Source of the DNA: Rhodothermales bacterium
GTDB taxonomy: Bacteria; Bacteroidota; Rhodothermia; Rhodothermales; Bin80
DNA: 64,000 nt
Assembly (NCBI GenBank): GCA_958296045.1
Contig: CATQHT010000003.1
Span: forward strand, 135,246-199,245
Reading direction: 5' to 3'
Shown: positions 36,511-45,933 of the stretch, one piece after another
How positions within the stretch are numbered: position 1 is the stretch's first letter
Layout of the letters: the number at the start of each line of letters is the position of its first letter
The notes under the pieces: model-generated
What the model was told of the DNA's origin: nothing
Seen by the model: the letters and a program-made list of their open reading frames with translations, nothing else
Databases searched by the model: none
Program-made: the position numbers and the translations under genes

Positions 36511-37173
36511 CTGGTGTAGTACGGACACTTGCAACCGAACGGACGATATGTGAGTGGAGTTCACATGACTGTCACGGAACCGCTCACGGGAAAGGGGACC
36601 TGGCTGAGTCGACGACTGATCAAACTGGTGTTCGCGTGCTTAGGTCGGCAGAGCCAACCGTAACGCCTGATATCGATTTCGACGGGAGCTACCATAATCT
36701 GATTTCGCGGGCTCGCCACAAGGGCTACCGCACAGTGGATACATGGATTCTCCATCCGTGCTCAGGATCCCCCTTCCCGGGAGGGGCTCAGGTTGAAGCG
36801 GTGATACGTGGTTCCTGAGACGGTGCCGCCACTGGCGGCACCGTCTGCATAGCTTCCCAGAGAAAGCCGGTAAGTTCGCGTGCAACGGCCACGATAGCTT
36901 TCGACGGTGCCTTGCGATATACCAGCCGCTAGTACCGTTTGTGGAGTCGTTGCTGGGCCCGCCAACTAATGGCAATCACGGCCGGCGTGCAGTGCTCCTG
37001 GCGACGGCTCAAGGCCACGCTGCGCCGCGGAGGATGCGTGTATTTCCACGCCGCAGAGACCAGCGCCCTACGAGCAAAAGCGTTCCCTATCTTCGTAATA
37101 GGACCAGGTCGAGTGCGGCTTCCAGAAGAGTGTTCCGAAGGTACGAGCCCAACGTACGCCATCAGGGACTTAG
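36511..37173 (-). pseudogene. IS110-family element copy 1, 3' half (noncoding end plus transposase C-terminus)
   Basis: Bases 36511-37173 are nearly identical to 43778-44437 of the second IS110 copy, differing at scattered positions. They include the 3' noncoding end (36511 to about 36785) and the transposase C-terminal codons, for example MAYVGLVPSEHSSGSRT and KIGNAFARRALVSAAWKYT. A base change at about 36933 creates a TAG in the transposase frame (RY* instead of RYQRLVHRK). The copy breaks off at 37173, where an IS1634-type element is inserted, and resumes at 39523. Confidence 0.8.
36819..36845. repeat. Perfect 12-bp inverted repeat in IS110 copy 1
   Basis: GACGGTGCCGCC, a 3-base loop ACT, then GGCGGCACCGTC. 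The same hairpin is at 44086-44112 in copy 2. It falls at the very end of the transposase frame and beside the conserved noncoding end, so it could be part of a structured RNA or an end of the coding region. Confidence 0.75.
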
Positions 37174-37432
37174 CTCGACTTTGTCACTTGTAGTGAAGTG
37201 AGAGGTCGGACCTCCCCTGTCCCCGTTTTTGGGGGCGTTTTTCCGGGTGCTATGGAGCCTTTCTGATTACCGGAGCGGTCGGTGGTGGCTTAGGGGGTGT
37301 TCGCCCCTGTCTTGCGTGTCCTTCGTCGTATTGGGGCCCCTTGATCGGGTCTCATCTGTCCGAATCGGACACAGCTCACGCTACTCCTTCTGGAGTGGGT
37401 ACTGGCGTGAGGCATGGGGGGCGTCACAGCAT

Positions 37433-39223
37433 TCATGAATCAGGAGGTTTTTTCAGATCGTTCGGCTCACTGGAGTATTCCTCCTTGCTTCTTGTCGCCG
37501 CGGGATCGTAGCTCATGCCCAGACAATGGACGATCCGCTGCAAGCATGGCGTCAACTTCTGATCCACTTTGAGGACGATATAGCGGTGCTTACTCTTTGG
37601 TAGCACCGTGGTAATCCGATGGATCCGGTTGAGTTTGAAGCGGAGCGCATTCCAGCTTTCATGGACATGGTTGGCCTTGAGCTTGGTGCGGATCAAATGG
37701 GACACGTGGTAGGCCAGCACGGTAATGAACAGATGTCCTTCAATCCGCTCATCTTTGCTGTGATAGATAGGCCGTAATCCCAGGTCGGACTTCATGACTC
37801 GGAACGTGGCCTCAATTTCCGTGAGCCGCCAGTAGGTGCGCGCAATCTTTTTGGCAGACCAGGTGGTATGGCTGGTGCTGAGCACATACCCTCCGGCGGC
37901 CTGGGTTTTTTTCTGATGGGAGGTACGCTTGCTAAACGTGACCGATGCGGCACGCTGTGTCCCCTCCTTCTGCTTCACCTCAACCTCATACAGGTGGGCC
38001 ACCGACTTGTACTTCTCCTGCAGGCGACCAACCTTGCGTTCGACTTTCTTGATATTTTTCAGGCGTCTGGGCACGGGCAGTCCCTCATGGAGGTATTGCA
38101 GTGCCGCTTCAAACTGGTCGCATTTGGTCTGCAAGATCTGCTCGTCGGTGGCCTGCCGGGCTTCACTGTGTACATAGACGCGCACTACTCCCTCCTCCTC
38201 GGGGAGCTTCCAAGCCCGGACTTTCACCTCATTAGCGGTTACAAACTCTTGATCGGGTGCCTGGGTGGGCACAGGAGGCACCCTTTTTCGCTCCACACAG
38301 ATCCAGTTGAGGTTGTTGTCCTTCAAGTACGCCAGATTTGCTTTGGTGGCAATACCGGCATCCATGATGATGGTGGGCGTCGCTCCGTTCAGGTTCTCTA
38401 TGGCCTTTTGGAGCGTAGCCGGCTCGCTCGCGTTGCCAGGTAGAATCTCCACACCGCGCGGGAATCCCGAGGCATCGAGCGTCAGCGCCAGCGTGACCAG
38501 AGGACAATCGCTCCGCTTCTCTTTGCTGCGCCCACGACGAAGGAGTTCTCCTTTCTCCCGACCGTGATAAAAGGCATTTGTTAGATCATAAAACACGATC
38601 GTCTCGTCAAAATCCAACACCCTCTTTGTGTTTCCAAAGAGGCGGTTCATGATCTCATGCCGGTGCTTGTGCAACCGGTCTGAGCATCGGTACAGCATGC
38701 TCAGACTTGGCTCCTGGAGGTTCAGCAGCTCCAGGATACTGGAGGTCTCCGTCATCCACTTATGGGTGCGCCGTTCACTGCCGGGACAGAGCATGCGTCC
38801 GACGATCAACGCACAGGCGAGTTTGATATGATTTTCGGGAAACTCGAGTTCACGCAAGAGTTCTTCCATGCCCAGCAGTTCGAGCGCTTGCAGCGCTAGG
38901 CGCTCGCCTCCGACGGTTTTGGCGTCGGGGTTGTAGACCTTATCTGTGAGAATGGTGTCGCGACCATCCGGGTGTTTTGCATTGATGTCGAAGCCTTGGT
39001 CCAGGAGTCGTTTGACGATGTCATCGACCGCGTTCTTCAGGTGCTCGTCCTCTTCCTGTACGGAGAGGCGAGCTTGTCCTTTCAGTCGGGCGGTGACCTG
39101 CTTGGCGAGTTCGGGCCAGTCTTGCTTAGGGATACTGAAATCCCGTCCGAGGTTGAGTAGGGTACGGTGGGTGGATTGTCCTTCGACGCGTACGGATTGA
39201 AGGAGCGCGAATGAGGTTCGCAC
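37433..39223 (-). CDS. IS1634-family transposase
   Basis: The frame encodes 596 residues from a GTG at 39223. Family features are the N-terminal EGQSTHRTLLNLGRDF, the first catalytic Asp in ETIVFYDLTNAFYHGREKGE (quoted at limit), TIIMDAGIATKANLAYLKDN, and the C-terminal TYWRLTEIEATFRVMKSDLG then LRPIYHSKDERIEGHLFI, holding the catalytic Glu. It is probably an intact DDE transposase. The typical N-terminus FVRASNYRRKNGQV is encoded in frame upstream (to about 39265) with no ATG, so the true start may be an alternative codon there or the start may have been lost. Confidence 0.9.
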   Translation of the reverse strand: MRTSFALLQSVRVEGQSTHRTLLNLGRDFSIPKQDWPELAKQVTARLKGQARLSVQEEDEHLKNAVDDIVKRLLDQGFDINAKHPDGRDTILTDKVYNPDAKTVGGERLALQALELLGMEELLRELEFPENHIKLACALIVGRMLCPGSERRTHKWMTETSSILELLNLQEPSLSMLYRCSDRLHKHRHEIMNRLFGNTKRVLDFDETIVFYDLTNAFYHGREKGELLRRGRSKEKRSDCPLVTLALTLDASGFPRGVEILPGNASEPATLQKAIENLNGATPTIIMDAGIATKANLAYLKDNNLNWICVERKRVPPVPTQAPDQEFVTANEVKVRAWKLPEEEGVVRVYVHSEARQATDEQILQTKCDQFEAALQYLHEGLPVPRRLKNIKKVERKVGRLQEKYKSVAHLYEVEVKQKEGTQRAASVTFSKRTSHQKKTQAAGGYVLSTSHTTWSAKKIARTYWRLTEIEATFRVMKSDLGLRPIYHSKDERIEGHLFITVLAYHVSHLIRTKLKANHVHESWNALRFKLNRIHRITTVLPKSKHRYIVLKVDQKLTPCLQRIVHCLGMSYDPAATRSKEEYSSEPNDLKKPPDS

Positions 39224-39380
39224 CTGGCCGTTTTTGCGGCGGTAATTAGAGGCTCGTACGAAGATGGCGCTGCGCGTCTGGTCCGGGGTGGTGTTACGGC
39301 GCCGATCGCGGCGCGTTCCCGGAGGCCCTATCTATTTCACTACAACGCGATCGGCGACAATATCGACGAAAAACGGCGCT

Positions 39381-39522
39381 GAAATCGGCCTGCTAGGAGG
39401 AAAACGAAGAAAAACGAGGCCCCGCCGTCAGCCTGAGTGACAAAGATGGCCGAAATCGGCCCTCCAGGCGGATAATTGAGGGCGAACGAGGCCCCGCCGT
39501 CAGCCCGAGTGCCAAAGATGGG
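39381..39522. repeat. 71-bp tandem duplication at the right end of the IS1634 element
   Basis: Two units beginning GAAATCGGCC (39381 and 39452) and ending CAAAGATGG are about 80% alike, sharing CGAGGCCCCGCCGTCAGCC. The unit contains the terminal inverted repeat, so the element carries two candidate right ends, at about 39449 and 39522. Confidence 0.75.
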
Positions 39523-39682
39523 TTAGGATGTGCGAAACGGCGGATGTCTCCCAGTTCACAGGCCAACTGCATGGCTGTAAAGAGAGCGATGCCGCGGAAG
39601 CCTTGCAGTTCCTGTACCGTTCGCTGGTATCGGGAGGTTTTTGAAATCTCTGCGATTCGGTCTTCTACCTGGCGGATCTGGG
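39523..39682 (-). pseudogene. IS110 copy 1, remaining internal segment
   Basis: Bases 39523-39682 continue the IS110 transposase sequence interrupted at 37173 and match copy 2 at 44434-44596, encoding QIRQVEDRIAEISKTSRYQR and TVQELQGFRGIALFTAMQLA. The match stops abruptly after GGATCTGGG, so the transposase N-terminal half and the left end are deleted. Confidence 0.8.
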
Positions 39683-43630: not shown

Positions 43631-43778
43631 GGCCTGTTAATGCGCCAGCGATTCTAAATTTGGGTGCATCTAGGATTTACGGGAATGCCTGTTCAGCAGA
43701 CGATATGTGTATGATGGGTGTATGGACTGGCAATACCGGTCCAGCGATGCCCTGCTATAGAGTGCTATTGTCTTTCAC

Positions 43779-44054
43779 TGGTGTAGTACGGACACTTGCA
43801 ACCGAACGGACGATATGTGCGTGGAGTTCACATGACTTTCACGGAACCGCTCTCGGGAAAGGGGACCTGGCTGAGTCGACGACTGATCAAACTGGTGTTC
43901 GCGTGCTTAGGTCAGCAGAGCCAACCGTAACGCCTGATATCGATTTCGACGGGAGCTACCATAATCTGATTTCGCGGGCTCGCCGCAAGGGCTACCGCAC
44001 AGTGGATACATGGATTCTCCATCCGTGCTCAGGATCCCCCTTCCCGGGAGGGGC
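43779..44054 (-). ncRNA. Candidate bridge RNA region of the IS110-family element
   Basis: About 275 bp of noncoding DNA between the transposase stop and the element end is preserved in both copies with only about ten differences. It holds short inverted repeats, for example ATGGA/TCCAT around TTC and CCCCTTCCCGGGAGGGG. IS110-family elements carry a bridge RNA in a noncoding end; in the IS1111 group it lies 3' of the transposase, as here. This is an inference from position and conservation; no RNA fold was computed. Confidence 0.4.
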
Positions 44055-45218
44055 TCAGGTTGAAGGGGTGATACATGGTTCCTGAGACGGTGCCGCCACT
44101 GGCGGCACCGTCTGCATCGCTTCCCAGAGAAAGCCGGTAAGTTCGCGTGCAACGGCCACGATAGCTTTCGACGGTGCCTTGCGATGTACCAGCCGCTGGT
44201 ACCGTTTGTGGAGTCGTTGCTGGGCCCGCCAACTAATGGCAATCACGGCCGGCGTGCAGTGCTCCTGGCGACGGCTCAAGGCCACGCTGCGCCGCGGAGG
44301 ATGCGTGTATTTCCACGCCGCAGAGACCAGCGCCCTACGAGCAAAAGCGTTCCCAGTCTTCGTAATAGGACCAGGTCGAGTGCGGCTTCCAGAAGAGTGC
44401 TCCGAAGGTACTAGCCCAACGTACGCCATCAGGGACTTAGGATGTGCGAAACGGCGGATGTCTCCCAGTTCACAGGCCAACTGCATGGCTGTAAAGAGAG
44501 CGATGCCGCGGAAGCCTTGCAGTTCCTGTACCGTTCGCTGGTATCGGGAGGTTTTTGAAATCTCTGCGATTCGGTCTTCTACCTGGCGGATCTGGGCGTT
44601 GAGCGTATCAATCTGAGCCATCAAGGTGCCCAGCGTAAAGGCATCGTTATCGTTAAGAGATAGGCCGTTCAACCAGCGCCAGAATTATTGCGTCCAGTTC
44701 TTGCCTGCCCGGTATACATGACCGCGGCTTTGCAATAAGAGCACTAGACGCTGCTTGACCTTGGTCAGATCTTGAGTGAGTGAAACCCGTCGGCGCACGA
44801 CGGATCGCTCGCTGATCAGGGCGTCGTCTGGTACGTGAATCACCGTCAATAGACCGGCCGCATAGAACTGGGCCAGCTTCGCTGCATCACGGCGATCCGT
44901 CTTTACCCGGTCACCGGGTCGCCGTGGCACCGAGGACGGTGCAATCACCTCGCAGGCGAACCCAAGGTCGTGCAACGTTCTATAGAGCGTATAACCGCAG
45001 GATGACGCCTCATAGCAGCATTGCGGCTCACCGAATTTGTCGCGGATGTTCTCCATCACAGTGCGGAGCCGTTTCGGGTCATGGCTGGAAATCTCCAGAG
45101 CATAGCAGTTCGCGTGCTTTTGTGGATCGTACGCGCAGACAGCAATCGTGTCCCTGTGGACATCAAGACCCACGAAGATCTTTCTCTGCTCTGCGTTTGC
45201 GTTACGAGGTTTCTTCAT
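44055..45218 (-). pseudogene. IS110-family transposase with one in-frame nonsense codon
   Basis: The two halves, 45218-44685 (177 residues) and the rest to 44055, are in the same frame and joined by a single TAA at 44685-44687 (NWTQ*FWRWLNGLSL). The N-terminal RuvC-like half has FVGLDVHRDTIAVCAY, CCYEASSCGY and VKTDRRDAAKLAQFYAAG, giving the DEDD residues. The C-terminal half has the transposase_20 region LQGFRGIALFTAMQLACE and YVGLVPSEHSSGSRT. Repairing one base would restore a 387-codon gene of normal size, so the inactivation is recent, or the stop is read through. Confidence 0.85.
44086..44112. repeat. Perfect 12-bp inverted repeat in IS110 copy 2
   Basis: Identical hairpin to that at 36819-36845 (GACGGTGCCGCC/GGCGGCACCGTC around ACT). 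On the transposase strand it encodes TVPPVAAPS just before the C-terminus. Confidence 0.75.
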
Positions 45219-45306
45219 ATGAGCGTTGCGTTGGTGGTTAGAGGTTAGGCGGCAAGATACCTCATCGTCCCGGCCGCGTCCGTACTATAATATCTGAGGT
45301 ACACCC

Positions 45307-45933
45307 ATAAAACCAAGCAAGCTGCTGCGCGATGTGCTGAAACGCATCCGATCGGCCGCCGGTACATTTGAGGATAACCGTCAGGGGCCCAATCTGCGCT
45401 ACACGCTGGCCGATGCTGTGTTGAGCGCATTTGCCTGCTTCTTTCTGCAATCGCCTTCCTCTCTTGCTTTTCAGCCGAAGATGCAGGACGACGTGGGCCG
45501 TTCCAACGGCCAGACGCTGTTTGGCATGCAAGGCATTCCCTCTGACGGGCAGATCCGCAACCTGCTGGACCGCCTGGTGCCAGATTCATTTCAGCTCCTG
45601 TTTCTGCACCTGCTGGAAACGCTTCGTTCCAAGGGAGACTTTTCGCCGTTTGTACGTCTGAGGGATCGCATCCTCGTGGCGCTTGATGGCATTGAGTTTC
45701 ATTCCTCTCGGACAATCCATTGTCAGCAATGCTCCTCGCGTCGCACGGGCAAAGACAAGCGTCCCTCGTTCTTCCATACCATGGTGGCGGCGGTTGTGGT
45801 GGCTCCAGGGCACAACCGGGTGGTACCGTTGATGCCAGAATTTGTCTGCACACAGGATGATCCTGGCGACCAGCACTCGGTGCGGCGTCGCAAGCGGATT
45901 GGGGGGGGGGGGGTGAGTACAGGGCAGGGCTAA
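45307..45933 (+). pseudogene. Truncated DDE transposase (ISNCY-like)
   Basis: The frame encodes LRYTLADAVLSAFACFFLQS, PKMQDDVGRSNGQTLFGM, IPSDGQIRNLLDRLVPDSF, LVALDGIEFHSSRTIHCQQC and VVVAPGHNRVVPLMPEF, the N-terminal half of a transposase family with the IPSDNQIRNLLD and LDGT motifs. A GTG start is at 45334; family-like residues begin slightly earlier. It runs into 13 consecutive G at 45901-45913, after which no homology remains, so the C-terminal catalytic part is missing. It begins just outside the left end of IS110 copy 2. Confidence 0.75.
45901..45913. repeat. Homopolymer of 13 G
   Basis: A run of 13 G marks the exact point where the truncated transposase loses homology. It is either a recombination or slippage junction or a sequencing/assembly artefact. 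Confidence 0.7.

Follow-up and report, generated by a model that had tools for sequence, protein, structure and literature searches.

The window analyzed here, a stretch of 64,000 nucleotides from a Rhodothermales bacterium, carries on its minus strand an IS1111-type element. Its transposase gene ends at a stop codon (44055-44057) that adjoins a noncoding segment (43779-44054), with 275 bp of noncoding DNA between this stop codon and the right core dinucleotide. The element and its surroundings comprise the following features, given in window positions.

36511-37173 (-): second copy in the window, comprising the right end, the transposase C-terminus and a bridge RNA that the model matches at about 36610-36761
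43700-43777 (+): target-site flank, the leader start of a multicopy DDE insertion sequence
43778-43779 (-): core dinucleotide AG at the right junction; a second AG copy lies at 45294-45295
43780-45295 (-): IS1111-type element, 1516 bp including one core AG copy at its left end (45294-45295)
43783-43793 (-): right subterminal inverted repeat, GTCCGTACTAC
44055-45218 (-): transposase gene of 387 codons, interrupted by an in-frame TAA (44685-44687)
45278-45288 (-): left subterminal inverted repeat, ATAGTACGGAC, 11 bp, 1 mismatch relative to the right repeat
45296-45330 (+): other target-site flank, which continues into the beginning of the target insertion sequence's transposase

An IS1111-type element occupies the leader of a DDE insertion sequence

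The ends of the element were set by comparison with uninterrupted target sites and with the left and right ends that bear the inverted repeats. The flanks of the window copy (L001) are found joined without the element at 25 places in its own genome (4.78 Mb, 4 contigs), and two sites are filled, L001 and L002, which lie at an identical site and in identical orientation in the leader of the same multicopy DDE insertion sequence. Empty sites read CCTC-AG-TGAAAG or CCTC-AG-AGTGAAAG (among 19 of the 25 that were listed), and the filled site reads CCTC-AG-[ATATTATAGTACGGAC ... GTCCGTACTACACC]-AG-TGAAAG, with AG on both sides. Comparison of empty and filled sites thus gives AG as the core, one AG gained, and an element spanning 43780-45295. 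A first reading of the junctions had CA as the core; it was dropped for AG once the guides (CU) and other left ends had been aligned. Right cores other than AG occur in L003, L130 and L151 (AA), L086 and L166 (AT), L156 (AC) and L147 (TG).

One copy of the target insertion sequence encodes a 453-aa transposase with a borderline match to DDE_Tnp_1 (22.7 bits, cut-off 23). Next to the window element, the similarity of this transposase stops at a G run (45901-45913), which could reflect either a genuine truncation or an assembly error.

The subterminal inverted repeats of L001, L002 and L003 are 11 bp long with 1 mismatch, and outside them lie 7 bp on the left (AGATATT, the left core AG being counted in the element) and 3 bp on the right (ACC). 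IS1111 elements are described with 7-bp left and 3-bp right extensions (PMC11187229), and their subterminal repeats, of about 11-13 bp, are perfect or nearly so. The transposase carries the domains PF01548 and PF02371, both above the curated cut-off, an open copy matches NF033542 at 240 bits (cut-off 140), and the GL-P----SG motif reads GLVPSEHSSG. The frame is open in L002, L003, L004 and L005 and stopped in the window copy, which, because its own gene carries a stop, needs transposase in trans and is probably unable to move on its own. When the ends of the homologous elements L054, L085 and L086 are joined, they give TTGACA-18-TACTAT/TAATAT, a motif that hints, and is only suggestive here, at a circular intermediate with abutted ends.

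The noncoding segment is predicted to fold into a conserved two-loop RNA

The first-pass annotation had described two copies about 7 kb apart that keep some 275 bp of noncoding DNA with about ten differences. The second copy does lie about 7.3 kb away with the whole segment kept; the differences number 5 of 276 positions, and they do not mark the loops as had been suggested, since all four guide segments are identical in the two copies. This second copy is incomplete: it breaks off at 37173, where other DNA intervenes, and the following 160 bases of the element are found at about 39523-39682. The interrupting DNA (37174-39522) holds a DDE_Tnp_1 transposase at 37433-39223.

The several short inverted repeats noted earlier proved a weak clue, with a single palindrome having arms of at least 8, and folding the segment by itself, as had been proposed, gave a stability no better than that of shuffled sequences. 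The pairings of this single-sequence fold were rejected; they differed from those of the comparative fold, which emerged from an alignment of homologues. A search with the segment alone matched relatives whose transposases are about 35-65% identical, and these homologous segments adjoin those transposases. Their alignment has extended conserved blocks together with a single hypervariable one, about 10 bases long, which corresponds to the right target guide. The RNA features of the window copy are as follows.

about 43855-44045 (-): predicted bridge RNA (seekRNA) including the long closing stem, from the comparative fold and the stem test
43855-43865 (-): 3' arm of the closing stem, TCCCCTTTCCC, pairing with 44035-44045
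43877-44028 (-): bridge-RNA core; covariance model R1 matches it at 149.1 bits, this copy being among R1's building sequences
43892-43898 (-): left donor guide, ACACC-AG, on the 3' side of the donor loop; equals the right end of the element
43934-43941 (-): right donor guide region, GAUAUCAG, on the 5' side of the donor loop; its AUAU pairs with the left end AG-ATAT
43963-43972 (-): left target guide, AAAUC-AG-AUU, on the 3' side of the target loop; reads in the sense of the left flank
44000-44008 (-): right target guide, UAUCCACUG, on the 5' side of the target loop; its CU pairs with the core AG
44035-44045 (-): 5' arm of the closing stem, GGGAAGGGGGA, pairing with 43855-43865

RNAalifold placed the target stem-loop (GGAG/CUCC, CCAUG/UAUGG and an inner UGCGG/CCGCG, with an internal loop) and the inner stem of the donor (GCGU/ACGC); the outer donor stem CGACG/CGUCG was added by eye and then tested along with the others. 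Across 20 aligned copies, the 29 pairs of this fold are formed in 92.4% of cells, 11 of them have changed on both sides, and the covariation score is 0.284, compared with 0.152 after shuffling (0/500 as high) and at most 0.089 for slid partners. The same fold in 54 copies is paired in 89.3% of cells, with 21/29 pairs changed on both sides and 0/500 shuffles as high, figures that lean towards model R1 because the sequences were aligned to it. The closing stem was tested by duplex energies, since the MAFFT alignment of its 5' arm was poor: in 51 of the 54 copies (three had too little flank), the summed energy was -1555.9 for own arms and -1026.8 (sd 43.6) for swapped arms, 0/5000. A conserved fold with two loops and covariation is present in this RNA family.

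Guides in the target loop match the flanks of their own element

We compared the guides with the DNA flanking each insertion. Right ends were assigned by eye, from a conserved end motif, for 41 of the 54 model matches; 13 were dropped (L133, L146, L059, L153, L150, L163, L155 and L157-L162). The right-guide test covered 38 of the 41, with L129, which ends at the core, and L154 and L164, which have short guides, left out. Core bases were excluded and five offsets were allowed for own and swapped flanks alike. Right guides scored 195.5 against their own right flanks and 158.7 (sd 5.8) against swapped flanks, 0/20000, and the result was the same with other genomes only (n = 31, 0/20000). In individual copies, the reverse complement of the right guide agrees with the right flank after the core at 7/7 positions in L065 (TAGGACA) and L148 (AAGCTGG); L056 also reaches 7/7 with two G-U pairs, and L079 (CCCGTGG) does so at a one-base offset.

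The own flank beats all 37 others in 6 of the 38 copies. In the window copy, the right guide fits its flank weakly (score 4.0, with 25/37 other flanks as good): AGTG pairs, then a mismatch follows. The own-flank fit is likewise not outstanding in L006, where 25/37 other flanks are as good, and L145, L147 and L130 fail to match, with 37/37, 32/37 and 31/37 other flanks as good. At L002, which sits at CCTC-AG-AGTGAAAG, the best pairing is shifted by two bases from the register expected.

Tests involving left ends used 12 of the 13 two-ended copies, L002 being left out because it shares the target of L001. The left target guides scored 35.0 against their own left flanks and 17.7 against swapped ones (n = 12, 0/20000), with guide/flank pairs such as TTAGC/GTAGC in L079, CAATT/GAATT in L085 and TTTGG/TTCGG in L072. 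The window copy's left guide has only TC-AG in common with its flank. L004, of which there is a left flank and a truncated RNA, was left out; its flank GGGACC has only the last C in common with the guide. In the order of the RNA, the top-strand guide precedes the bottom-strand guide.

Guides in the donor loop match the ends of the element

The donor windows (four bases for the right guide, five for the left) were fixed after the sequences had been viewed, and both donor scores are inflated by relatedness because guide and end lie in one element and are inherited together. Read with this in mind, the left donor guide scored 182 versus 156.5 against the right end (n = 40, 0/20000; L165, without an aligned guide, was left out of the 41), and its variants ACACC, ATACC, ACATC, ACAGC and ATGCC reappear letter for letter at the right end of their own copy. 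The right donor guide, the more weakly supported of the two, scored 40.5 versus 32.9 against the left end (n = 12, 5/20000); that of L144 scores 0.5 of 4.

Altogether, both sides of both loops match target flanks or element ends across many copies, with the window copy a weak case on the target side. This bears out the earlier proposal that the 3' end carries a bridge RNA of the IS1111 group, which was to fall if no two-loop structure and no complementarity between loops and flanks or ends turned up: both a covarying two-loop fold and loop complementarity to flanks and ends are found.

Copies within one genome carry different guides

Besides fragments, the window's genome holds the copies L002 (98%), L003 (97%), L004 (96%) and L005 (92%). 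The right target guide UAUCCACU is common to L001, L003, L004 and L006, that of L002 is UAUUCACU, and L005 combines the right guide AACCCACU with the left guide ACTTT-AG. The left flank of L005 is TTGTTT-AG; its right flank, AG-TGGGTG, was taken from L011, on the far side of a later insertion. In L005, then, a different target goes with differences in both halves of the guide. L007 likewise has a changed guide. As far as the sequences tell, guide changes among these copies are natural reprogramming.

Two insertions deserve mention as such. L005 and the right-end fragment L011 (L167, G000:C2:617900-623700) are apparently parts of a single element into which about 3.9 kb of DNA has inserted. L003 lies within a gene for a DDE transposase resembling the one at 37433-39223 of the window; its junctions have AG on the left and AA on the right.

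The RNA family occurs elsewhere in the order and beyond

Covariance model R1 was built from 20 sequences. It found the RNA in 20/114 genomes of the order searched and in 11/395 genomes of a phylum sample, the window's own genome being included in both counts; one of the latter, G124, lies outside the order. Outside the phylum, two plasmid records were tested. A plasmid of the betaproteobacterium Cupriavidus necator has an R1 match of 60.8 bits directly 3' of an annotated IS110 family transposase. Its guides predict a right flank AG-TGTC and a right end AUAUC-AG, and the downstream sequence is ATATC-AG-TGTCCTG; its left guide has only CT-AG in common with the sequence before the left end. The Sinorhizobium meliloti plasmid record gave no R1 match (best 7.7 bits). 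The segment had no match in Rfam at the gathering cut-off or at E up to 5, and no relative of it was found in the viral contigs scanned.

Weaker R1 matches (37-66 bits) were seen in L163 (G124:C31) and L157-L162, mostly with no transposase found nearby; in L159, L160 and L162, the long closing stem is kept and the loops are degenerate.

G006, a related genome from the same family, has two short elements, L132 (G006:C71, 472 bp) and L140 (G006:C82, 471 bp), with both ends, the bridge RNA and a short stub of the transposase N-terminus. L146 (G006:C168) has the left end and the RNA up to the contig end, and L137 (G006:C100) and L138 (G006:C188) share the same internal deletion, with no left end found. 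Neither L132 nor L140 has a right guide that fits its own flank, and L132, L138 and L140 have each lost part of the left donor guide. It is conceivable, at a little under even odds, that bridge RNAs travel in this genome in transposase-less elements of about 470 bp, mobilized in trans by transposase from complete elements and, given these mismatched and partly deleted guides, perhaps also by the bridge RNAs of other elements. No such transposase-less elements are described in the accessible parts of the literature on IS110/IS1111 with bridge RNA, MITEs and non-autonomous elements. Apparent left ends at about 460 bp in L142 and L149 were set aside as chance; that of L149 lies inside transposase sequence, and that of L142 seems to be this same sequence.

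Discussion

We conclude that the 3' noncoding end of the window's IS1111-type element encodes a bridge RNA (seekRNA) that guides recombination, with a probability of roughly 0.94. The structure, the guide positions, the family-wide matching of guides to targets and donors, the core and the boundaries were computed here; transcription, transposase binding, circle formation and recombination are expected by analogy with the published mechanism. In the predicted RNA, the closing stem brings the target-binding and donor-binding stem-loops together, and the sides of the donor loop pair with the joined element ends, CTACACC-AG-ATATTATAG. By the published mechanism, the RNA would let the DEDD transposase join the circular element to the target and recombine the two at AG, with one extra AG left behind. 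For the window copy, transposase would be supplied in trans from the open genes elsewhere in the genome.

The view that the segment has no function and is alike in the window copies only because they are recent duplicates gains some color from the other long copies in the genome, which together with the window copies are 92-98% alike over their whole length. It is already refuted by the covariation, and we give it next to no weight: compensatory changes occur in homologous segments beside transposases about 35-65% identical, in other genomes, where guides also follow targets (n = 31). A structured RNA of the 3' untranslated region that serves some other purpose, such as a terminator or a regulator of transposase expression, would be compatible with the long G+C-rich closing stem, yet it would leave unexplained why unpaired loops match their own flanks and both ends of the element, and we regard it as very improbable.

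A more serious possibility, though still the less probable one, is that the RNA family is real and the window locus a relic, its transposase stopped by a TAA and its right guide a misfit to its own site. The in-frame stop speaks for this, as does the weak own match of the window copy, while the guide of L002, UAUUCACU, would pair with AGTGAA in an L001-type site. Against it, the structure, the ends and all guide segments of the window copy are intact, and the copy could move in trans since open transposase genes exist in L002, L003, L004 and L005.

Like ISEc11, ISKpn4 and ISPa11, the elements studied for their seekRNA (Siddiquee et al., 2024; PMC11187229), the window element has a noncoding region 3' of its transposase, and it has in common with IS1111-family seekRNA elements the subterminal repeats, the 7- and 3-bp extensions, the guide order and the GL-P----SG motif. 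In the account given there, IS1111 RNAs have the top-strand guide first, opposite to IS110 (PMC11187229). The window element differs in the length of its transposase, 387 aa versus the 330-350 aa stated for the IS1111 family, and in its target, the leader of a DDE insertion sequence (PMC11187229). Relative to what that study presents, the donor loop has here been located as well, by matching it to the element ends (PMC11187229). With the bridge RNA of IS621, of the IS110 group, it shares two internal loops, four guides and a core dinucleotide within the guides, as described by Durrant et al. (2024; PMC11208160). IS621 encodes its RNA at the left (5') end with the bottom-strand guide first, whereas the RNA here is 3' of the transposase with the order reversed, and the core is CT in IS621 and AG here (PMC11208160).

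The window element thus has the transposase domains, repeats, extensions, noncoding region and fixed site and orientation of an IS1111 element; its RNA, as a family, has two guide loops, complementarity to both strands of the target and to the joined element ends, and the IS1111 order. The arrangement of the IS621-like IS110 group, an RNA at the left end with the left guide first, is not what the window element has. IS4321 and IS5075, of the IS1111 family, insert in the inverted repeats of Tn21-family transposons. The window element resembles them in targeting the end of another transposable element and differs in inserting into the leader of a DDE_Tnp_1-like insertion sequence.

The window RNA represents a family that Rfam lacks and that joins the bridge-RNA (seekRNA) systems described in recent work; all four of its guides could be placed by means of natural variation. 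This includes the donor side, recognition of which is less worked out for IS1111 elements than for IS621. With copies in one genome that carry different guides and with 25 empty sites beside them, guide reprogramming and mismatch tolerance become directly testable.
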